DNA of 38,933 bases from Butyrivibrio sp. (GTDB lineage Bacteria; Bacillota; Clostridia; Lachnospirales; Lachnospiraceae): positions 1-38,933 of the forward strand of contig JAILBM010000443.1 in NCBI GenBank assembly GCA_024680925.1, read 5' to 3'. The position numbers and the translations under genes were made by a program. Shown piece by piece: positions 8,365 through 29,473 of the stretch (its first letter is position 1; the number at the start of each line of letters is the position of its first letter). The notes beneath the pieces were generated by a model. The model did no database searches, was not told the origin of the DNA, and was given only the letters and a program-made list of their open reading frames with translations.

Positions 8365-9585
8365 ATGTCTAATCTCGCAGAGCTTAGAAAAGATTTCCCG
8401 ATTTTGCAAAAGGGAGATTATATTTATTTTGATAATGCGGCAACAACCCAGCGTCCGATTCAGGTTGTGGAAGCTATTAAGGATTTCTACGAAAATGCCA
8501 ATGCTAATCCTCTCAGAGGACTATATGACTGGAGTGTGGAAGCAACAGACAGATATGAAAATGCCAGAAGCTGCGTAGCCGGTTTTATAGGAGCATCAAA
8601 GTCTGAGGAAATAATATTTACAAGAAATACTACTGAGTCAATTAATTTAATAGCATATTCTTATGCTCTTTCAAATATTTCAGAGGGTGATGAAATTGTT
8701 ATTACTGTTATGGAACATCATAGTAACATTCTTCCATGGCAGATGGTGGCAAGGCAAAAGGGTGCAAAGCTTATATTTATGGAACCCTTGGCTGATGGCA
8801 CTATTACCGAAGAAGAGTATAAAAGTAAGATAACAGATAAAACAAAGATTGTTTCAGTAGGTCATGTTTCCAATGTAATGGGTATCACCAATCCAGTAAA
8901 AGAAATTGCTGAGTATGCTCATTCCAAAGGAGCTGTGGTAATAGTTGACGGAGCTCAGTCTACACCTCATATGAGTGTGGATGTTAAGGCTCTTGGAGCA
9001 GACTTTTTTGCATTCTCCGGACATAAGCTCCTTGGACCTATGGGTATAGGTGTACTTTATGCAAGATATGAATTACTGGAAAAAATGACACCGTTCCTTA
9101 CAGGCGGTGAAATGATAGAGTATGTTACAAGAACAGATGCAACTTGGGCTGAAATACCGCATAAGTTTGAAGCCGGTACTGTGAATGCTGCAGGAGCGGT
9201 AGGATTAGAGGCAGCTATTAGATATATTCAGAAAATCGGCATGGATAATATAAGCGCTCATGAAAAGGCTTTAACAACCCTGCTTATGGACGAATTAAAG
9301 AAAATGCCTTATATTAAAGTATATGGATCAAGTGATCCTGCAAAGCATTGCGGAATTGTGACATTTACAATGGATGGTGTACATCCTCATGATATTTCTT
9401 CTGTTCTTAACGAAGATCATGTATGTGTCAGGGCAGGACATCATTGTGCTCAGCCTTTGATGCAGTTTTTAAATGTTGGTTCTACTGCGAGAGCCAGTCT
9501 GTATTTTTATAATACTGAGGAAGAGGTTTTAAGATTTACCGAAAAGCTGGCTAATGTTAGAAAGGTAATGGGCTATGGAGCTTAA
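8365..9585 (+). CDS. sufS: Cysteine desulfurase SufS
   Basis: YFDNAATTQRP, MEHHSNILPWQ, VIVDGAQSTPHM, FAFSGHKLLGPMGIGVLY, VRAGHHCAQPLM. Confidence 0.97.
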   Translation: MSNLAELRKDFPILQKGDYIYFDNAATTQRPIQVVEAIKDFYENANANPLRGLYDWSVEATDRYENARSCVAGFIGASKSEEIIFTRNTTESINLIAYSYALSNISEGDEIVITVMEHHSNILPWQMVARQKGAKLIFMEPLADGTITEEEYKSKITDKTKIVSVGHVSNVMGITNPVKEIAEYAHSKGAVVIVDGAQSTPHMSVDVKALGADFFAFSGHKLLGPMGIGVLYARYELLEKMTPFLTGGEMIEYVTRTDATWAEIPHKFEAGTVNAAGAVGLEAAIRYIQKIGMDNISAHEKALTTLLMDELKKMPYIKVYGSSDPAKHCGIVTFTMDGVHPHDISSVLNEDHVCVRAGHHCAQPLMQFLNVGSTARASLYFYNTEEEVLRFTEKLANVRKVMGYGA

Positions 9586-10024
9586 GGATTTATACAGAGA
9601 AATAGTTAATGAACATAATTTAAGACCTGAACACAAGGGAGAAATGTCAAATCCGGATTTGGTTTTAAGAGGTGTTAATCCAAGCTGTGGAGATGATATT
9701 ACTCTTCAGCTTAAACTGGATGAATCAGGGAAAATTTCCGATGCTATGTTCAGCGGCAGCGGATGTGCTATTTCTCAGGCATCTGTAGATATGATGATCG
9801 ATAACATTATCGGACTTAACAAGGAAGAAGCAATTAAACGCTCTGATCTTTTTATGGGAATGATAAAGGGTGATGTAAAAGATGATGATAAACTTGAAGA
9901 GCTTGATGATGCAGCGGCCCTTAAGGATATATCCCATATGCCGGCAAGAGTAAAATGTGCAGTTTTGGGATGGCGTACCATGAAAGAAATTTTAGAAAAT
10001 CCCGATAAAACAGAAAACAAATAA
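9575..10024 (+). CDS. sufU: SUF system scaffold/sulfurtransferase SufU (IscU-like)
   Basis: NPSCGDDITLQLKLD, FSGSGCAISQASVDMM, MPARVKCAVLGWRTM: the three conserved cysteines of SufU; overlaps sufS 3' end. Confidence 0.95.
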   Translation: MELKDLYREIVNEHNLRPEHKGEMSNPDLVLRGVNPSCGDDITLQLKLDESGKISDAMFSGSGCAISQASVDMMIDNIIGLNKEEAIKRSDLFMGMIKGDVKDDDKLEELDDAAALKDISHMPARVKCAVLGWRTMKEILENPDKTENK

Positions 10025-10048
10025 ATTTGGGGATTGTTGAGGGGTAGA

Positions 10049-10591
10049 ATGGCAGATTCTAATATAACTAAGAATGCCTTGGCAACAGCATTAAAAAATT
10101 TAATGAAAGAAAAGCCATTTGAAAAGATTAGTATTTCTGATATATGCGATGCTTGTGGCATGAATAGGAAAAGCTTTTATTACCACTTTAAGGATAAATA
10201 CGATCTGGTCAATTGGATATTCTACGTAGATTTTGTCGGAAAAATGAATCTTGCATCCTATAAGAATGGGTGGGATCTAATCGAAGACATTTGTAATAAA
10301 TTTTACGATGACAAAGAGTTTTATGGAGAAGCCCTTAAAATAAAGGGACAAAATAATTTCCATGATTATGTATTGGAAACAATCGCACCTATAAGTGAAT
10401 TTTTTATTCAGGATTTGTATAAAGAGGAAAAATTACAGGATTTCTTTGTTACCTTTTTTGGAGATGCTTTTTTACAGGCTATTATGAGATGGCTTACGGA
10501 AGGTATGCAGATAACTCCTGACGAATTTGTTTCCAGACTAAAAATAATAAGTCTTGGACTTGCAGTTAAAATTATTGAAGATGAAAAATAA
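10049..10591 (+). CDS. TetR/AcrR-family transcriptional regulator
   Basis: N-terminal HTH KNALATALKNLMKEKPFEKISISDICDACGMNRKSFYYHFKDKYDLVNWIF. ATG 10049 (RBS aggggt) preferred over TTG 10034 of the ORF track. About 25 bp downstream of sufU. Confidence 0.88.
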   Translation: MADSNITKNALATALKNLMKEKPFEKISISDICDACGMNRKSFYYHFKDKYDLVNWIFYVDFVGKMNLASYKNGWDLIEDICNKFYDDKEFYGEALKIKGQNNFHDYVLETIAPISEFFIQDLYKEEKLQDFFVTFFGDAFLQAIMRWLTEGMQITPDEFVSRLKIISLGLAVKIIEDEK

Positions 10592-10690: not shown

Positions 10691-11728
10691 TTATTTATCA
10701 TCTGTTTCTTCAAATTCAGGCATTGTTTTTTTGATAATATCTGTAAGGGCAATGTCGTTATTTATTATATTCAGCTGAGAATCATTATTGGAATATACAC
10801 TACCATCGTTATCAAATCTAAGTGAGCAATCTGAATGGCATAAAATTGTACTTATAAGGTTTGAATCGTACAGTAAATCCCAGAGAATGGCAGGAACCTC
10901 CTGATTTAATCTAAGGTCTTTAATAATAGGACCTGCAGAAGTTTTGCAGGTAGAATCTTTTAACATAAAAATCATCCCACTGTGATAGTCAAGCAATGAA
11001 TTGTAATATTCAGGATTTGATAGTTTATCAATATCTTCCTCGTTATAAACCTTATATATGGAAAAAAGAACTCCTGAGTCATGCAGCAGCTGACAGGTAT
11101 CTTTGGCATTTGGAGAATCCGCATTTACCAGTAAAAGTACATTTGCGGCCTTTTTGAGCTTAGAAGCCTGTACAGATGTAACCTGAGCATCACTTAATAA
11201 ATAAAAGAAACCACAGTACTCATTTTTTATAAAAAGATCATATATATCAGTATTAGTAGAAAATTCACCGTCATTTAAAATACAATAGGTGTTACAACCA
11301 AGAGGTTGAGCCTGATCTATAATTTTTTGCATATCTTTGGTTTGGATAGATGAATGGGAAGAATCAGCAGGTTCATATCTAAAATCTATGACCCAGGGAA
11401 TATAAAAACCCAGTTCCTGTGATTTTTTTCTAAGAACCCTTGCATAATAGGTCCAACTGTCATAACCCATATTAATACCAAAGGTTTTAATACAGTTAAA
11501 GTCTGTTGTGAAAATAAAGTCCTGAAGTAATTTATAATAAGGACTGTCTTCTTTTTTTAGTATTGTAGTTATAACTTCAAATATTTCTGGCTGAAATCTT
11601 CCTGTAGAAAACTGCCTGCCCATATCTGCCAGCTTTCTAAGGGTTCTTTTGGGATCATCAGCCATTTCTTTAATACCACGGTCTACAGCAGTGGTGATCA
11701 TAAGACGTGTAATATTTTTTGTATCCAA
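10691..11728 (-). CDS. Radical SAM-like paralog lacking the cluster-binding cysteines (putative pseudoenzyme)
   Basis: Co-linear by eye with the adjacent 11941-13431 radical SAM protein (INMGYDSWTYYARVLRKKSQELGFYIPWVIDF vs LNLGYEAFFHGTKTIRANREKYNCNIPWLILF), but CxxxCxxC is absent (RYEPADSSHSS) and GGEP reads NDGEF. Confidence 0.75.
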   Translation of the reverse strand: MDTKNITRLMITTAVDRGIKEMADDPKRTLRKLADMGRQFSTGRFQPEIFEVITTILKKEDSPYYKLLQDFIFTTDFNCIKTFGINMGYDSWTYYARVLRKKSQELGFYIPWVIDFRYEPADSSHSSIQTKDMQKIIDQAQPLGCNTYCILNDGEFSTNTDIYDLFIKNEYCGFFYLLSDAQVTSVQASKLKKAANVLLLVNADSPNAKDTCQLLHDSGVLFSIYKVYNEEDIDKLSNPEYYNSLLDYHSGMIFMLKDSTCKTSAGPIIKDLRLNQEVPAILWDLLYDSNLISTILCHSDCSLRFDNDGSVYSNNDSQLNIINNDIALTDIIKKTMPEFEETDDK

Positions 11729-11940
11729 TTTTTTCTCCGTAATAATAATTTACTTAAAATTTACTTACTGATTATATCTTATCATCAATGTTATTTCATT
11801 AAAAAGTGTAAAAAAACGGACAGAATAATGAGTTTGTCCAAAAATACGACGAATAAATTTTTTTGACCAATGAAGAAAGAAATTGACACACCTATAATGA
11901 AAATATAAGAGGGGTATTTTATATATTAGGAGGATAGATT

Positions 11941-13431
11941 ATGGCTAAAGTGGTACAACATGTTTCACACGCAGCACAAAGAGAGTTTTTTAAAGTATTA
12001 ATTGATCATTTTTACGACAATATCGATAAATCAGAGGATAGAACAAAAACATATTTAAAACTGGTGGACCAGTACGAAAAATTCATGGGTGGCGGTTCTG
12101 ATAAGAAAAATGTTGAAGCAGTACGTAAGGCATTTAATGATCCAAATAACCGCTGGGTAAAGTTTTTAAACAGAATTATTGATGAAACAGATCCTACATA
12201 TGCAAAAAAACTTTTGTTAAACCTTGGTTATGAGGCGTTTTTCCATGGAACAAAGACTATAAGGGCAAACAGAGAAAAGTATAATTGCAATATTCCATGG
12301 CTCATATTATTTGATCCTACCATGGCTTGTAATATGCACTGTGTAGGATGCTGGTCCGGAACATACGGACATAAGTCAAATCTTTCATTCGAGGATATGG
12401 ATAAAATAGTTTCACAGGGCAAAGAACTGGGTGTATATGTATACATGATGACCGGTGGAGAGCCAACTACAAGAATGAAAGAAATCTTTAAGCTTGCTGA
12501 GAAGCACAATGATTGCTTCTTTGGATTATATTCAAATTCAACTCTTATAACAGATGAGATGTGCGAAAGGGTTAGAGAACTGGGCAATATAACATTTATG
12601 TTGTCATTGGAAGGAACGCCTGACACAAACGATTCAAGACGTGGTGACGGACACTACAAGGCGGTAATGACAGCAATGGACAGATTAAAGGCCCATGGAA
12701 TAATCTTTGGAACATCTGTATGTTACACTAGGGACAATATTGAAGCTGTTACAAGTGATGAATTTTTCCATCTGTTAGAGGAAAAAGGAGCAAGATTTGG
12801 ATTTTACTTCCATCTGATGCCTGTTGGAAATAATGCAGCTCCGGAGCTCATGCCAACAGTTGAACAGAGAAAGTACATAATCAATAGAATTCGAGAAGTA
12901 CGTTCTCCTGAGTCAAACATTGAGTTCTTCCCAATGGATTTCCAAAACGACGGAGAAGCAGTTGGAGGCTGTATCGCAGGTGGAAGAAATTACTTCCATA
13001 TAAATTCAAACGGTGATGCTGAGCCTTGTGTATTTATTCATTTCTCAAATACTAACATACATGATAATTCTATTCTTGAAATGTTACAGAGTCCGTTGTT
13101 TATGGCATATCATGAGGGACAGCCATTTAACAGAAATCATCTTCGTCCATGCCCAATGCTGGAGAATCCTGATCTTCTCAGAGAAATGGTACAAAAAACG
13201 GGAGCACATCAGACTAACCAGGAGAGCCCGGAAGAAGTTGATCATCTCTGTGCTAAATGCGATGAATATGCGGCAAAATGGGCACCTGTTGCAGATGAAA
13301 TCTGGGCAAATCAGAAGCATAAAAAGCCGGCCTATGAAAATTATGCAAAGGAAAAGAGAGAGCATCCTGAGCTTGCAGCTTTTGAGCATGTACCAATGAT
13401 TCAGGAAGAAAAAATTGAAAAACGAGCTTAA
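11941..13431 (+). CDS. Radical SAM protein with C-terminal SPASM-like cysteine region
   Basis: CNMHCVGCW (CxxxCxxC), MMTGGEPT, N-terminal helical extension, C-terminal cysteines (INSNGDAEPCVFIHFS, LRPCPMLEN, DHLCAKCDEYA). Confidence 0.92.
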   Translation: MAKVVQHVSHAAQREFFKVLIDHFYDNIDKSEDRTKTYLKLVDQYEKFMGGGSDKKNVEAVRKAFNDPNNRWVKFLNRIIDETDPTYAKKLLLNLGYEAFFHGTKTIRANREKYNCNIPWLILFDPTMACNMHCVGCWSGTYGHKSNLSFEDMDKIVSQGKELGVYVYMMTGGEPTTRMKEIFKLAEKHNDCFFGLYSNSTLITDEMCERVRELGNITFMLSLEGTPDTNDSRRGDGHYKAVMTAMDRLKAHGIIFGTSVCYTRDNIEAVTSDEFFHLLEEKGARFGFYFHLMPVGNNAAPELMPTVEQRKYIINRIREVRSPESNIEFFPMDFQNDGEAVGGCIAGGRNYFHINSNGDAEPCVFIHFSNTNIHDNSILEMLQSPLFMAYHEGQPFNRNHLRPCPMLENPDLLREMVQKTGAHQTNQESPEEVDHLCAKCDEYAAKWAPVADEIWANQKHKKPAYENYAKEKREHPELAAFEHVPMIQEEKIEKRA

Positions 13432-15806: not shown

Positions 15807-18800
15807 TTGGATAAGTATGAATATAAAGTAAGAGCTGACGAAATTAAGTCTCTCATTAAGGAAAGAAGATTTGCTGAGGCAGTTGAGATTGCAGATATTA
15901 TTGACTGGAAAAGAGTTAAAAGTATTGCAATGCTCTGCACTATAAGTGATCTGTATAAATATAACAGAAGATTTGAAGAAAGTAAGGATATACTCCTTTT
16001 AGCCTATGATAGATACCCTTTAGGCAGAAATATAGTATATTCTCTGTGCGAATTATCCATAAAAATGGGTGAATTTGTTCAGGCAATTGAATACTACAAA
16101 GAATTTGTAAGAATTGCACCAAGAGATACAGCAAGATATATATTGCAGTATAAGCTGTATGAGGCTCAGGATGTAAGTCTTGAGGAGAGGATAGCGGTAC
16201 TCGAAGAGCTCAAAAAGCACGATTATAAAGAGAAATGGGCATATGAACTTGCATATCTTTATCACAGAGTGGGACTTACTACTGAGTGCGTAGAAGAATG
16301 CGATGAAATGTTTCTTTGGTTCGGAGAGGGAAGATACGTTATGAAGGCTCTTGAGCTTAAGGCACTTCATGAACCACTTTCCCCTGAGCAGCAGGATAGA
16401 TATACAAGATATAAGAGTGGGTTTACAGGCGGAGTAACTGAATCTGTGCTGGATGAAAAAGAAGAATCGGAAGGTGAGAATCTTGTTAAGCAGCCAACTA
16501 AAGAGCTGCCACCTGTTGAACAGACTTATGACCAGCAATATGTACAGAATCAGTACACTAATCCGGAAGTACAGTATAATCAGGCATATGCACAGCAACA
16601 GTACGATCCACAAAATCAGTACTCACAGACTGATAATTCTTATCAATATGATAATCAGCAGCAGTACCAAAATGCATATGAGTATATACAGAACCAGGGG
16701 TATAATCAGGTTACGGATGACACAAGAGTTTTTTCACCTGTTTCTGATGAAACAAAGGTTTATTCAGCAGTTTCAGATGAGACAAAAGTATTTGAACAGC
16801 CGGTGGTGGAAAATGATATAGAGATTAAACCTGTAGATGTAGGAAACTTTAATACTATTAACTTACAGGAAGCTCTTGCAGAAAGCCTTAGAGAAGTCAT
16901 TGGAGATGATCAGGAAACTAAGGCCTTTTCCGGTGCGGAAAATTATCAAAATGCTTCAGAAGCTCCTGATATGCAGGAAGTATTTTTTAACACTCAGGAA
17001 CAGGAACCTGAAAAGATTGCAGCTACAATGACATCAGAATTTGAAGCTCAGCTTCAAAAAGAAGATCCATTTGTAAGAGCAGCTCAAAGACACCAGGAAT
17101 CCGGACCTAAAAACAGTAACGGAGAAGCTTTACAGCATAATGGCTTTGCAGTACCCTTTACGGATGAACCTCTTCAGGATGAAGTTCCGGGTGCTGTAAT
17201 AAAACCAAATGTCAGATATAAATCAGATAATCACTTTGAGAATATTTTATCCCAGGATTATGACGGACAGATAAGTATGGTTGTTCAGGAAGAAAAACAG
17301 GTTGAACAGCAGATTACAGGTCAGATAAGTATCTCTGATTTTATGGAAAACTGGGAGCAATACAAGAAACAGCAACAACAGCAACAGCTTGACAGAATTA
17401 AAAAGCGTGTTTCAGATGAAACCGGTGATATGTTTGCTGATTTCGATGAAAAAACCAAGGCAGGTCTTCAGGAGAGAATTGAAAAGGCTATAGCTGATGC
17501 GCTTCAAAAAGAAAAGGAAGAGAATGTTCATTCCAAGAAGGCCAAAGAGCGTCAGGAACAGCTTTTAAATGAGGTTGTTTCACAGGTGGTAGATTCTGAA
17601 GAAGATGAGCCTGTAGAAATTACTCCGGGATCTACAGTAAAACCGGATAATATAATAACTCCTGAATATTCAAGTGAAGGCCTTGAAGATTTGGCCAGAA
17701 AAACTTTAAAAACAATTGATGACAGGAAAAATAAATCTAAAGAAGGCACTGTAGAGACAGAAACTACCGAAGAAATATCAGAGGAGCCTTCAGAAGAAGC
17801 ACTTCAGGATTTGGAATCTGAAGATGAGGCTGTTTTACAGGAAGCTGTTGAAAATGATAAAGAGATAACTGAGACTGAGGAAGAAACTGCAGAAGAGACA
17901 GAGATAGAAGCAGAAGATTCCCAGGCAGTATCAGAAACTGAAAGCGAAATTTCAGATAAGGATGATGCCGAAGTTATAAAGGAAAAGAAAGCTGATAAAG
18001 AGAAAAAGAAGCAGCCTGTAGAAAAGCTTTATAAGGATAGTGATGAAGAAAAAACTGAGAAATCAGTTGACAAGGAATCAAGAGAAATAGAAGAACGTGT
18101 AAGAACTATGACTCCTGAGGAAAAGGAACTTTTTGGACCATATATACATCACAAAAAATCCAGAAGACAAATTATAAATGCCATAGATTCACTTAGCATG
18201 GCATCTTATACCAATAATGCAATAGTTACAGGAGAAGAAGGCGCAGGTACAGTTTCACTTGCAAAGGGACTTATTAAGTCTGTGCAGGTTTCTGATTCTA
18301 ATTTCTCAGGTAAGGTAGCAAAGATAACAGCTAACTCTCTTAACAAAAAGAGTGTAAATACAATTTTAGAAAAGCTTTCAAATGGTGCTTTGATTATTCA
18401 GAGGGCAACAGATATGAAGGCTGATACAGTAGCTAATCTGCAAAAGGCATTGCAGAACGAGAATAGAGGAATGATAGTAATCCTTGAAGATACCAAGGAA
18501 GAAATTGATAAATTCCTTGAAAAGAATCCGGGACTTAAGGAAAGCTTTAATGTCAGAGTTGATATTGAAGCCTTGGATGATGAGTCTCTTGTGGCATATG
18601 CAAAGCAATATGCCCTGGAAAAAGAGTATGCAATAGATAATTTGGGAATACTGGCATTGCATACCTGTATAGAAGAGCGTCAGACACTTGATCATGATGT
18701 TACACTTGCAGAAGTAAAGGATATTGTAGACGATGCAATATACTATGCGGATAAGAAAAGTGTTTCACATTTTGTCGATACGCTGGTAGGAAAAAGATTT

Positions 18801-18848
18801 GATGATGAAGATATGATTATTCTAAGAGAAAAAGATTTCATGCATTGA
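15807..18848 (+). CDS. TPR protein with Gln/Asn- and Glu-rich linker and C-terminal degenerate AAA+ (CbbX/SpoVK-like) domain
   Basis: TTG start with RBS aagaggtgg. N-terminal TPR-like helices; C-terminal [12 protein letters not shown] in the Walker A position, [11 protein letters not shown] in the Walker B position, [39 protein letters not shown] matching the CbbX/SpoVK sensor region pattern. Confidence 0.85.
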
Positions 18849-20932: not shown

Positions 20933-23900
20933 ATGAATATAAATTTTCAGACAATATCCGGGCTTGATAATAATGACAGTTCCAAGGCCTACATGGAAGT
21001 AGGGCAAAGACCTGTTTACAAGCCGGAAGGCAGTGGATTGGCAAAGGGAAGTGCCTACGCAGTAAATCTAAATTCAAATATTTTTAATAATGATGTCTAT
21101 GGTGAAAAATCAGCAAAAACAGCAGAAACTATAATGGATAATGCTGCTAATAAAGATATCTCTTTGGAAGAAAACTATAAGGTTTTGATGTCTAATACCA
21201 TGTCTGCAGAAGATTATGGGAAGGCAGCAGAGGAAGGCTTTGACTTTAATGAACTGGATCCAGAAACTGCTGTAACCATACTGGATAAGATTAAAGCTGT
21301 AGTTGCTGAAGCAGGAACCTCTATTGAAGGTTATAATGATGATCTTAATATAGAACAACTAACCAAAATAACAGGCAGCAGATCCCTTGCGACAAGTATT
21401 AAGGATAATTTTAAAGAAAATGATTTGCCACTTACAAGGCAGGTTGCAGAGGATATAAAATCAGCTTTTGACAGAGTATCTGAAATAGAAAGCCTTAGCG
21501 AAAGTACAATGAGATATATGACTGCAAATCAGGTAGAGCCGACAATAGATAATTTTTATATGTCAGTTCATAGTACCAATGGTCAGACAACCATGGGCAG
21601 AGGCTACTATGCTCAGGATTCATCAGGATATTTTGCTCAGAAAGCTGATGTACTGAATTGGGATCAAATCAAAGACCAGGCTCAAAGTATAGTTGAGGAA
21701 GCCGGCTTTGATGTGGACAACATCCAAATTTTAGAGGATGCCAGGTGGATAATTGAACAGGGACTTCCACTTACAACGGATAATTTAACCAAAATGGAAG
21801 AGCTTAAAAATATATCTTTTCCGGTAGAAGAGGACAAGATAGTTAAAGCAGCCATAAATGCTATAGTCAGTGGAAAAAAAGTCGAAGAAGCTAATCTTTC
21901 CGAAGAAGAAAACCTTATTAATAAGGCGCTGCGAATAAAAAATGATGTAGATAATATCAGTGATGAAGCAATTAGGGAAATAGTTTCTTCCGGAAAAAAA
22001 ATAAATATAAATAATTTAAGCCAGGCTCAGAAAAATATAGATATAGCCTTAAAGGATTTTGAAAATAAAAATATAATAAAAGATTCTGTTATTTTGCAGC
22101 AAGCAGAAAATAATAATCAGACTGAGCTCATGGTTCAAAAACAAATGCAGGAAATCAGACTGTCAATGACAGCTGCGGCCAATATTAAATTATTAAGAAG
22201 CGGCTTTCAAATTGATACAGAACCTATTGCCGATGTGATAAATAGGCTTCAGAAGGCCATAAGAGAAGATGTTGCAGGAGAAGAAATAACTGACAGAATA
22301 ACACAGGGAGTAAGAACTCCTGTAGATAGTGAAACCTTCAATCTTGTAAATAAAAGATTGAGTTTTATGCAACAGGCCCCATTATCCATAGTAGGAGCCA
22401 TAGGAGAAGAGTTTAATGTTGTATCTTTGGACGTTGTTGTAACAAGGGCACAAAATCTCAGGCTTGCCTATGAAAGTGCAGGAGAGGCTTATGAAACTCT
22501 TATGACAAAGCCTAGAAAAGATCTGGGAGATAATATTAAAAAGGCTTTTAAAAATGTAGAGGATATATTAGAAGATATTGGACTTGAAAAGACAGACAGC
22601 AATAAGCGTGCTGTGAGGATACTGGGTTATAACAGTATGTCTCTTACCCGTGAAAATATAGAAAATGTCAGAATGTGGGATTCAAAGCTTCAAAATGTAG
22701 TGGAAAAATTAAATCCGGGTACTGTTTTAAAAATGATAAGGGACGGTAAAAACCCGCTGGATATGACAATAGATGAAGCTCTTGAATATCTTGAAAGCGA
22801 AGATGTAAAAGATTCTGCAGTTGATGAAAAATACGCAAGATTTCTTTATAAATTGGAAAATAATGACGATATAACTTCAGAGGAAAGAGAGTCATATATA
22901 GGAATATACAGGCTGTTTAATAATTTGCAAAAAACAGATGATGCAGCAATAGGAATGCTTTTAAACAGTAATATGGAAATGACTCTGGATAATCTTCTTA
23001 CAGCATCACGAACACTTAAAACTGCAGATAAAGGTATGGATTATAAGGTAGATGATAATTTTGGCGGCATAGAACATAAAGAAAGAACAACAAAAAATAT
23101 CTCAGAGCAAATAAACAGTGCATTTGAGTTTTATTCTGCGAAATCTAAAACGGTTTATGACAATATTGAACCGGAAAAACTCCATATATTAAGTCCGGAT
23201 ATGGATATAACACTTGTATCTCTGGCAGAAGCCATGGAGGAACTTCCTGAGGATAAGGAACTAAATAATAAATATTATAAAGAACAGGCAAATCAGCTTA
23301 GAAATATCCTTATGTCAAAAGATACTTCGGCTTCCATGGAGAATCTTATACAAAATGATATAAATATAAATACCAATACCCTTCAGGCTATGATGTCTCA
23401 AAGACAGGGATATAGAGGTGGAAAATCAATTTGGAATAAAGTCAGTGATTTTTCAAAAGATGCAGACAAAGAATACCTGGATATAGCAGAAGAACTTGAA
23501 GAAGAAGGCTTTGATGAAAAATACCAAAATCATTTACAAAAAATAGAACAAAACATTGAAGAGATACTCTTGAATCAAGCTGATAAATACATAGATGTCA
23601 GAGCCTTGTCCTTAATTCATAAGCAGTTAAATGTAATTAGTAATATGGCTAAAAAACATAGTTATGACATTCCTGTAGAAATTGAAGGCAAAACTGTTTC
23701 TATGCATGTAGTTCTTAATGAGGATAGTGAGCAGGGAACAAAGGTTGAAGCCGGTATAAGAACTATGGATTATGGCTATATGTCTGTATCTCTTTATGAA
23801 GAAGAAGGAAAACTTAAGGGAGCAATTTTGACAGATATGGGAGAAAACTCATATCAATCAGAATATATGGAAGAAGTTAAGGAAAGACTATTAAAGAATC

Positions 23901-24058
23901 TTTCAGGGTTATTTCCGCAATACGAAACAAGTGAAGAAAATATTGTTGTTCTTTATCGGGCGACAGATTCAAGCCGGTTGATCACCGGATCGGGAAATGG
24001 AATTTCCGATACCAGAGAGCTTTTAGGAATGGCAAGTGCTTTTATTAAAGCATTATAA
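20933..24058 (+). CDS. Large flagellar-locus protein (DUF6240-like; C-terminus resembles FliK/hook-length control region)
   Basis: No signal peptide, mostly helical, repeated PLTxDNL-type motifs (LPLTTDNLTKMEEL, MEMTLDNLLTASRTL, MSLTRENIENVRMW); upstream of flagellin/fliS; family name from memory, not searched. Confidence 0.65.
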   Translation: MNINFQTISGLDNNDSSKAYMEVGQRPVYKPEGSGLAKGSAYAVNLNSNIFNNDVYGEKSAKTAETIMDNAANKDISLEENYKVLMSNTMSAEDYGKAAEEGFDFNELDPETAVTILDKIKAVVAEAGTSIEGYNDDLNIEQLTKITGSRSLATSIKDNFKENDLPLTRQVAEDIKSAFDRVSEIESLSESTMRYMTANQVEPTIDNFYMSVHSTNGQTTMGRGYYAQDSSGYFAQKADVLNWDQIKDQAQSIVEEAGFDVDNIQILEDARWIIEQGLPLTTDNLTKMEELKNISFPVEEDKIVKAAINAIVSGKKVEEANLSEEENLINKALRIKNDVDNISDEAIREIVSSGKKININNLSQAQKNIDIALKDFENKNIIKDSVILQQAENNNQTELMVQKQMQEIRLSMTAAANIKLLRSGFQIDTEPIADVINRLQKAIREDVAGEEITDRITQGVRTPVDSETFNLVNKRLSFMQQAPLSIVGAIGEEFNVVSLDVVVTRAQNLRLAYESAGEAYETLMTKPRKDLGDNIKKAFKNVEDILEDIGLEKTDSNKRAVRILGYNSMSLTRENIENVRMWDSKLQNVVEKLNPGTVLKMIRDGKNPLDMTIDEALEYLESEDVKDSAVDEKYARFLYKLENNDDITSEERESYIGIYRLFNNLQKTDDAAIGMLLNSNMEMTLDNLLTASRTLKTADKGMDYKVDDNFGGIEHKERTTKNISEQINSAFEFYSAKSKTVYDNIEPEKLHILSPDMDITLVSLAEAMEELPEDKELNNKYYKEQANQLRNILMSKDTSASMENLIQNDININTNTLQAMMSQRQGYRGGKSIWNKVSDFSKDADKEYLDIAEELEEEGFDEKYQNHLQKIEQNIEEILLNQADKYIDVRALSLIHKQLNVISNMAKKHSYDIPVEIEGKTVSMHVVLNEDSEQGTKVEAGIRTMDYGYMSVSLYEEEGKLKGAILTDMGENSYQSEYMEEVKERLLKNLSGLFPQYETSEENIVVLYRATDSSRLITGSGNGISDTRELLGMASAFIKAL

Positions 24059-27219: not shown

Positions 27220-28248
27220 ATGAATAAAGAAAAGATTATTCAATCCGGTCCCATAATAGCAATTTGTGATTCCGAAGAGGATTATTGCTACAGGCTTGAT
27301 GAATATTTGAGAACAAACTTTAGTCTGGAATTTGAAATATATGATTTTACAAATTCAAACAGCTTAAATGAATTTCAGAATAAAGAAAACATTATGGTAC
27401 TGATTATATCTGAAAAGGAGTATGAGGATGTAGAAAAGAATATATGTCAGAATATAATTTTACTTCAAGAGGATAATGCAGGAATAAATCAAGTGGCAGA
27501 AAATGACAATATAGTACGAATAAACAAATATGTCCCTAGTAAGATGATATTGAACAGTCTGGTAGATGTATGCATGGAACTACCTGATAATATCCTTGGA
27601 AAAAATTTTGAAGGTAGTAGTGCTTTGGATATTATTGGATCTATATCTTTAAATGATAAAGATGCTCAGATGGCCCTTGCAGTTGAATTAGCATCAGAAC
27701 TGGGTCAAAAAGAGAAGGTTTTATTTTTGGAATTGTCACCCTTTTCCTGCCTTAGTAAATATACTCAGATATCCTGTGAGGAAAATCTGTCAGACCTTTT
27801 ATATTATATGGACTGTAACCCTGATAAATTTTTATTGTATTTTGACAGAATGGTAAAGGATTATGACGGCTGTAAAATTATTGCACCAATCATTTCTCCA
27901 TCCCAATTAAAGTCAATTACCAAAATTCAGTGGAATGCTCTTTTTAAGGCAATACAAAATAAAACAGAGTTCAAAAAAATCATTATAAATCTTTCGGAAG
28001 GCATTGATGGTTTATATGAAATACTCTCAAGAAGCAGCAAAATATACATGACAGTAAGTAATGATGAGATATCTCAATATAAGATAAATCAATATGAAAC
28101 ACTTTTAAAGGAAAACGAGTATGAAAAAATCCTTGCTGTAACACAAAGAATAATCAAACCATCATATATAGCAACCGGAACACTTAATAATGCCGGATAT
28201 AAAAGATGGGCAAAAGAGCTTATTGGAGGATTGGAAAATGGAACATGA
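27220..28248 (+). CDS. TadZ/CpaE-like protein with atypical ATPase domain
   Basis: Receiver-like N-terminus plus MinD/CpaE-like region (DIIGSISLNDKDAQMALAVELASELGQKEKVLFLELSPF), directly upstream of TadA. Confidence 0.7.
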   Translation: MNKEKIIQSGPIIAICDSEEDYCYRLDEYLRTNFSLEFEIYDFTNSNSLNEFQNKENIMVLIISEKEYEDVEKNICQNIILLQEDNAGINQVAENDNIVRINKYVPSKMILNSLVDVCMELPDNILGKNFEGSSALDIIGSISLNDKDAQMALAVELASELGQKEKVLFLELSPFSCLSKYTQISCEENLSDLLYYMDCNPDKFLLYFDRMVKDYDGCKIIAPIISPSQLKSITKIQWNALFKAIQNKTEFKKIIINLSEGIDGLYEILSRSSKIYMTVSNDEISQYKINQYETLLKENEYEKILAVTQRIIKPSYIATGTLNNAGYKRWAKELIGGLENGT

Positions 28249-29473
28249 TAAGCTAAAAAAAATGGTAAAAGAAGGCTTATTAAGTTCTATAGATTATTCC
28301 AGAGATATAAAAGATGAAGAAATAACAAATCTTATAGATGAGCAGATTTCTGAAAAGTGCAGGAATCTGGATATATCAATTGAAGAAAAGAAAAGGCTAA
28401 GAAGTGAAGTCTTTGATTCCATACGAAGGCTTGATATTTTACAGGATCTTGTGGATGACCCAAGGGTCACGGAAATAATGATCAATGGTCCCGACAATAT
28501 TTTTATAGAAAAATCAGGACGTCTTTTTAAATATGACATGTCCTTTGATAATAAAGAAAAATTGGAAGATGTGATACAACAGATAGTTGCAAAGTGTAAC
28601 AGAGTTGTTAACGAGTCATCTCCAATAGTAGATGCTAGACTTGAAAATGGTTCCAGAGTAAATGTTGTGCTGGCCCCTATAGCATTAAACGGCCCAATTT
28701 TAACAATACGAAGATTTCCGGAAAAGCCTTTTACAATGGAAAAATTAATTGAACTTGGTTCTATTTCACCGTATTTAAGCAAGTTTCTAAGTGTTCTGGT
28801 TCAGGCAGGATATAACGTCTTTATATCAGGCGGAACAGGTTCAGGTAAAACCACATTTCTTAATGCAATTTCAAACAGTATTCCAAAGGATGAACGAGTA
28901 ATAACCATCGAAGACAATGCAGAGCTGCAAATAACAGGAGTTCCTAACATTGTAAGAATGGAAACAAGAAATGCAAATATAGAAGGCTGTAGAGAGATCA
29001 CAATAAGAGATCTCATAAAATCATCTCTTCGAATGAGACCTGACCGAATAGTGGTGGGGGAAGTCAGAGGCGGTGAGTGTCTGGATATGTTGCAGGCTAT
29101 GAATACAGGTCATAAATCCATGTCCACAGGCCATGCCAACAGCGCCAAGGATATGTTATCAAGACTTGAGACCATGGTAATGATGGGAATGGAACTGCCT
29201 CTCCCTGCCATACGGGGACAGATAGCCTCAGGAATAGATATAGTAGTTCATTTGGGCAGACTTAGAGACAGATCAAGAAAGCTTCTGGAAATCTGCGAGC
29301 TGGAGCGGGAATTGGATCCTCAAAGCGGACAGATAGAAGTAAGAACCCTATATAAGTTTATTGAAAAAGGACAGAATGAAAAAGGAATTATTATTGGTGA
29401 ATGGGAGAAAATAAATGAACTTAAATATACTGAAAAACTACTTTCAGCAGGCCTTACATTACCGACTGACTAA
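28238..29473 (+). CDS. tadA: TadA/CpaF-type secretion ATPase
   Basis: NVFISGGTGSGKTTFLNAISNSIP, RVITIEDNAELQI, RMRPDRIVVGEVRGGECLDMLQAMNTGHKSMSTGHANS. ATG 28238 with upstream ggagga preferred over ORF start 28190. Confidence 0.96.
   Translation: MEHDKLKKMVKEGLLSSIDYSRDIKDEEITNLIDEQISEKCRNLDISIEEKKRLRSEVFDSIRRLDILQDLVDDPRVTEIMINGPDNIFIEKSGRLFKYDMSFDNKEKLEDVIQQIVAKCNRVVNESSPIVDARLENGSRVNVVLAPIALNGPILTIRRFPEKPFTMEKLIELGSISPYLSKFLSVLVQAGYNVFISGGTGSGKTTFLNAISNSIPKDERVITIEDNAELQITGVPNIVRMETRNANIEGCREITIRDLIKSSLRMRPDRIVVGEVRGGECLDMLQAMNTGHKSMSTGHANSAKDMLSRLETMVMMGMELPLPAIRGQIASGIDIVVHLGRLRDRSRKLLEICELERELDPQSGQIEVRTLYKFIEKGQNEKGIIIGEWEKINELKYTEKLLSAGLTLPTD

Follow-up and report, generated by a model that had tools for sequence, protein, structure and literature searches.

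A Conserved Family of Predicted Radical-SAM-Fold Pseudoenzymes and Its Possible Role as Co-regulator of DhaS-Type TetR Proteins

Introduction

Why should a radical SAM gene be faced, across a short gap, by a gene for a shorter version of the same protein from which the cysteine motif is missing? The question is raised by a stretch of 38,933 nucleotides from a Butyrivibrio genome (contig JAILBM010000443.1; hereafter the window), in which an earlier note, made by eye from the sequence, had described a 345-aa protein as a retained pseudoenzyme, paralogous to a divergently encoded 496-aa radical SAM protein that it may regulate, scaffold, or present with substrate. Radical SAM pseudoenzymes are rarely discussed, few full-text papers pairing "radical SAM" with "pseudoenzyme". 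In Lactococcus lactis, DhaQ, which is paralogous to the DhaK subunit, is a coactivator that works with DhaS, the TetR-type activator of dhaKLM. DhaQ is described as the "coactivator of the DhaKLM operon" (PMC7911632). In this study, we explored the relatives, neighbors, and upstream DNA of the Butyrivibrio pseudoenzyme and asked what such a protein might do.

The Locus

The window belongs to a draft genome of 3.77 Mb (G000), with Butyrivibrio sp. SIG348 and Butyrivibrio proteoclasticus P18 among its nearest relatives; plasmid carriage was rejected, as PLSDB gave no match. The end of a Suf operon, sufS and sufU (8365..10024, plus strand), identified from sequence and synteny, precedes the gene for a DhaS-like TetR regulator of 185 aa (10034..10591, plus strand), an arrangement kept in Butyrivibrio and CAG:791. 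Convergent with the TetR gene lies the pseudoenzyme gene (10691..11728, minus strand), which opens with a TTG codon and has GGAG just upstream on the minus strand, and diverging from it is the gene for the 496-aa protein (11941..13431, plus strand). As the earlier note had it, the 212-bp gap between the divergent genes holds no plausible small peptide gene, and a RiPP-type precursor was thus rejected. Elsewhere in the window, two long ORFs (15807-18848, 1013 aa, and 20933-24058, 1041 aa, the latter just before a flagellin gene) gave no NCBIfam match at E 1e-20, and a TadA/VirB11-type secretion ATPase (28190-29473) stands in a co-directional run of genes, possibly a Tad pilus cluster.

The 496-aa protein scores above the Pfam cut-offs for Radical_SAM (PF04055) and SPASM (PF13186) and counts SuiB and SkfB among its sequence relatives. 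It carries the cluster motif CxxxCxxC (as CNMHCVGC), GGEP, and the SPASM cysteines, motif residues that are invariant in 22 relatives; judged by these motifs, it is a radical SAM/SPASM enzyme of the active type.

The Pseudoenzyme and Its Family

The 345-aa protein has no significant match in Pfam or NCBIfam. Its kinship with the enzyme, proposed from colinear blocks seen by eye, is nonetheless recovered both by BLASTP (22% identity over 273 aa, E 1e-15) and by profile-profile alignment of the two families (hhalign, 99.9% probability, E 9.7e-33), the 326 aligned columns of which span those blocks. At only ~22-24% identity the pair must be old, and not the product of a recent duplication. The losses listed in the earlier note, CxxxCxxC, GGEP, and the cysteine-rich C-terminal tail with its auxiliary cysteines, were all confirmed, and they extend further: the cysteine loop is deleted outright (a 12-residue gap in the alignment), as is a loop with two arginines invariant in the enzyme; the equivalents of S222, E224, R233, and R234 are gone; and of 76 positions that are invariant in the enzyme and fall in the region common to both proteins, the pseudoenzymes keep 13 and have lost 63. 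Homologs with an intact CxxxCxxC, which the earlier note would have taken as a sign of strain-specific decay, number none among the 41 aligned family members. Lacking both the cluster cysteines and the SAM-binding GGE and later strand motifs that define radical SAM enzymes, the 345-aa protein falls, on its sequence, outside that group.

The fold appears to have outlived the chemistry. In the AlphaFold model (pLDDT 88.5, pTM 0.89), five N-terminal helices are followed by a β/α barrel, the partial TIM barrel of the radical SAM proteins, the absence of which would have refuted the earlier note; strands and helices come in the same order as in the enzyme model. The best PDB matches found by Foldseek are SuiB, SkfB, PqqE, and anSME, at moderate TM-scores (0.36-0.49 by query length) that may partly reflect the extra N-terminal domain of the pseudoenzyme. 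These proteins share its barrel; yet, unlike it, they carry iron-sulfur clusters and SAM sites, whereas the pseudoenzyme has lost the cluster cysteines, GGEP, and the auxiliary cysteines and has an N-terminal five-helix domain. From its alignments and predicted fold, the 345-aa protein is a true paralog of the radical SAM/SPASM enzyme, predicted to be catalytically dead.

Relatives were sought by a scan of GTDB genomes together with three whole-genome samples (class, order, and phylum). Full-length pseudoenzymes occur in Butyrivibrio, Acetobacterium tundrae, Fusibacter paucivorans, Intestinimonas, and Oscillospiraceae, among others; in the class sample they score at least 188 bits and active enzymes at most 126. 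One genome (G518) was left out of the set, its match being a radical SAM family member. In a quick tree search (LG+G4), 39 pseudoenzymes fall on one side of a single branch (SH-aLRT 100), which rules out a recent duplication of the neighboring enzyme. Three residues of the second helix (R28, R31, and D35), and likewise Y64, never change among the 41 pseudoenzymes, whereas the enzyme has other or varying residues there. The dN/dS check of the minus-strand gene proposed in the earlier note gave 0.10 in a close pair (G472 and G012), where the enzyme has 0.03 and the TetR gene 0.04.

That the gene might be a functionless radical SAM duplicate in the course of decay is therefore hardly credible. 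It does evolve faster than its neighbors (55% identity between G000 and G008, where the enzyme keeps 90%), and a few copies are broken (L087, L190) or truncated at the C-terminus (G012, G472). However, the single deep clade, the frames kept open over very large distances, the low dN/dS, and the invariant residues speak against decay and exclude a strain-specific one; judged by these alignments, the breadth of conservation has already refuted the idea. Tree, substitution ratios, and the modelled barrel support a retained pseudoenzyme, as the earlier note had supposed, with an apparently intact radical SAM fold and under purifying selection, and the family, which is real and conserved, has no name. 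Across large evolutionary distances, its clade has retained the predicted fold without the chemistry. The haloarchaeal TIGR04347 is likewise radical-SAM-derived and filed by NCBI as pseudo-SAM/SPASM, and our enzyme scores 52.6 bits against it (cut-off 525); the pseudoenzyme belongs to a different family, as it has no significant match to that model and is coupled to a TetR gene, a feature that the TIGR04347 description does not include.

Constraint, too, has moved. Mean identity among the enzymes is 38% in the N-terminal domain and 64% in the barrel; among the pseudoenzymes it is 39% in the N-terminal helical domain and 23% in the barrel. The aligned sequences thus indicate an inversion of constraint relative to the enzyme, and no clear shared ligand pocket was seen in the fast-evolving pseudoenzyme barrel.

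The TetR Companion

The constant companion of the pseudoenzyme is not the enzyme but the TetR gene, of which the earlier note made no mention. Its product has the Pfam domains TetR_N and TetR_C_8 (the latter above the Pfam cut-off), scores 116.3 bits against the NCBIfam model for DhaS (TIGR02366), just under the cut-off of 129, and has as its best PDB relatives the DhaS-type regulator 4mk6 (E 3.4e-21) and DhaS itself, 2iu5 (E 1.5e-11); the recognition region (NRKSFYYHF) is mostly invariant in the aligned set. A convergent DhaS-like TetR gene lies within ~4 kb on the opposite strand in 37 of the 43 pseudoenzyme loci, and in one more (L186 6774-7330, genome G657) it is split by a frameshift, either a sequencing error or real. 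Of the other five, three stop at contig ends (L084, L085, L152) and two are true exceptions (L083, L199), in which pseudoenzyme and enzyme occur with no TetR gene nearby, the operator described below being kept in L083. Counted by genomes, the TetR subfamily is present in 15 of the 16 pseudoenzyme genomes among 392 of the order (Fisher 4e-20), the sixteenth having the frameshifted copy, and in all 8 of those in the genus (Fisher 1e-7).

The dependence is one-sided. The TetR subfamily is also present where there is no pseudoenzyme (G025, G279, G448, G014, G474, and others), commonly beside the enzyme (G025, G279, G448, and the loci L232, L234, and L237); thus, the pseudoenzyme seems to need the TetR protein more than the TetR protein needs the pseudoenzyme. 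Two of these genomes document the loss itself: compared with the almost identical locus of G012, G279 (L217 5686-5793) and G448 (L218 6297) show a clean and recent internal deletion of the pseudoenzyme gene, leaving its last 20 codons. This natural knockout keeps the TetR gene, the enzyme, and an operator identical in sequence to that of G012; hence the TetR protein can do without the pseudoenzyme.

Enzyme Partnership and Co-divergence

The earlier note had asked whether the divergent pair is conserved across genomes, and the enzyme does stand beside the pseudoenzyme in 26 of the 43 loci. It is absent from 13 loci in which over 3 kb of sequence leaves space for it, and 8 genomes of 94-99% completeness (G350, G134, G328, G093, G657, G824, G626, and G590) keep the pseudoenzyme yet contain nothing of the enzyme family at E 1e-20. 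A common alternative target gene in the enzyme-less loci was not found, the neighbors of the pseudoenzyme being mixed: RelA/SpoT-like proteins, MerR with an FMN reductase, citrate synthase with a P-type ATPase, HerA, a BadF-type ATPase, and AcrB were considered and rejected as such. In three related genomes with pseudoenzyme and TetR and no adjacent enzyme, the divergent gene encodes a RelA/SpoT-type synthetase (L191 6915-7625, L192 1853-2551, L194 3070-3777).

Pairwise distances among the 19 loci that hold all three genes tell a similar story. Pseudoenzyme and TetR distances correlate most closely (r 0.89, partial 0.84), followed by those of pseudoenzyme and enzyme (r 0.73, partial 0.57), while the correlation between enzyme and TetR (r 0.58) turns negative once controlled (partial -0.23). 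These values favor the TetR protein as the partner of the pseudoenzyme, although joint inheritance of both genes could also produce them.

Could the pseudoenzyme instead be a partner subunit of the neighboring enzyme, acting as scaffold, inhibitor, or substrate presenter? The frequent divergent pairing, the N-terminal domain common to both proteins, trees that look largely congruent where both genes occur, and the partial correlation between the two would all fit. Yet the association with TetR is tighter, many close enzymes in the tree have no pseudoenzyme, the two deletion genomes discarded it cleanly while keeping the enzyme, and the 8 enzyme-less genomes disfavor any obligate partnership; because of the latter we rank this reading third and regard it as improbable. 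Of the roles offered in the earlier note, those of scaffold and presenter are accordingly weakened by the enzyme-less genomes, and "may regulate" survives, more likely by way of transcription. That the TetR gene is retained beside the pseudoenzyme in many Firmicutes, even where the enzyme is missing, suggests a role in helping the switch, and not in chemistry.

Operator-Like Sites

Between the divergent genes lies a palindrome, GGACA-N12-TGTCC (site P, 11818..11839), that occurs in exact form only once in the 3.77-Mb draft, the reversed control giving 8. Of the 43 loci, 17 have the same motif ahead of the pseudoenzyme gene, where shuffled sequences would lead one to expect 0.004, and the loci that bear it span Butyrivibrio, Acetobacterium-like genomes, Fusibacter, Intestinimonas, and Oscillospiraceae. 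The L. lactis DhaS site, which we take to be GGACACAT-N6-ATTTGTCC, matches it in half-sites and spacing. Exactly 29 bp further toward the enzyme, in loci that have the enzyme, is a second, weaker operator-like sequence (site R; 11847..11868 in the window, with 7/10 half-site bases). Its mean score is 6.6 of 10 half-site bases with the enzyme and 2.25 in four enzyme-less loci (Mann-Whitney p 0.004); other offsets score 1.4-3.8, a comparison that is partly post hoc, the 29-bp offset having been noticed and scored on the same sequences. Two loci (L086 4623-4703, L088 5836-5915) each carry a pair of exact operators, spaced by 58-59 bp, and a degenerate copy midway between the two; such an array with a 29-bp period suggests that several TetR dimers may bind side by side. 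A candidate promoter for the pseudoenzyme gene (ATGAAA-N17-TATAAT, 11771..11799, minus strand) was tentatively placed by a scan that yields no more sites than shuffles; thus, operator position alone cannot tell activation from repression.

The exact operator is also found in enzyme-less loci (L186, L191, L192, and L152), and this arrangement bears on our main rival explanation, namely that the pseudoenzyme is an effector under TetR control that has acquired its own new activity, be it ligand binder, carrier, or non-SAM enzyme, the TetR protein also regulating the radical SAM gene where present. A site P preceding the pseudoenzyme gene even where there is no enzyme, and a TetR protein that exists and keeps its operator without the pseudoenzyme, are what such a target would predict. 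On the other hand, the barrel shows no conserved new catalytic-looking motif, conservation being concentrated in the N-terminal helical domain, and the distances of the pseudoenzyme follow those of TetR more closely than one would expect of a gene that TetR merely regulates, although shared inheritance of the pair could account for this. We consider this explanation unlikely.

Proposed Role

We suggest, with about equal confidence for and against, that the pseudoenzyme acts as a co-regulator of the DhaS-type TetR protein, controlling its own gene and that of the enzyme. The locus would then be a regulatory module of three parts, TetR, pseudoenzyme, and enzyme, in which the TetR protein would bind GGACA-N12-TGTCC, at a strong site P ahead of the pseudoenzyme gene and a weaker site R ahead of the enzyme gene. 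The pseudo-radical-SAM protein, no longer an enzyme, would serve as its co-regulatory subunit: contact with TetR would be made by the conserved N-terminal helical domain, with the R28/R31/D35 helix as the proposed site, and the divergent barrel, which has lost its SAM and cluster sites but still has a few residues in common with the enzyme, would act as the sensor of a small molecule or peptide, possibly the substrate or product of the radical SAM enzyme. Ligand binding would switch transcription of the pseudoenzyme gene and, where present, of the enzyme gene, in either direction. DhaS and DhaQ of L. lactis are reported to act in this way. Weighing against this co-regulatory role are the two deletion genomes, where TetR, operator, and enzyme persist without it, the two loci with pseudoenzyme and enzyme and no TetR nearby, the restriction of the exact operator to a minority of loci, the barrel in which no clear shared ligand pocket was seen, and joint inheritance as another source of the co-divergence.

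The parallel with DhaQ and DhaS is evident. The TetR protein probably belongs to the same family (best PDB relatives 4mk6 and 2iu5), and in both systems it is encoded together with a degenerate paralog, derived from a metabolic enzyme or, in the case of DhaQ, from an enzyme subunit. Yet the pseudoenzyme has a predicted radical SAM barrel instead of the DhaK fold, and the candidate regulated gene encodes a radical SAM/SPASM enzyme, with no link to dihydroxyacetone. Given its different fold, the pseudoenzyme is not a member of the DhaQ family, though it may work like DhaQ. A literature search retrieved no published account of a TetR-pseudoenzyme module, pseudo-radical-SAM terms being swamped by unrelated uses of "pseudo-sam". 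More broadly, and a shade more tentatively than for the co-regulatory role itself, we envisage a widespread, unnamed radical-SAM-fold family that lost its SAM and iron-sulfur chemistry and may have come to serve DhaS-type TetR proteins as sensing co-regulators, in Firmicutes both with and without the parent enzyme. This would be a second and independent origin of the DhaQ principle, whereby a dead copy of an enzyme turns into the ligand sensor of a TetR protein. If so, the use of an enzyme copy as a sensor arose more than once, and the module would help to find the substrate of a radical SAM/SPASM enzyme of rumen and gut bacteria that is as yet uncharacterised. With a TetR partner, a defined operator, and genomes without the parent enzyme at hand, the regulatory role is directly testable. 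A possible hint at the pathway comes from three distant loci, in which the radical SAM gene is immediately followed by a DegV-family gene of the fatty-acid-binding type (L083 3481-4365, L157 5552-6421, L199 9716-10585).
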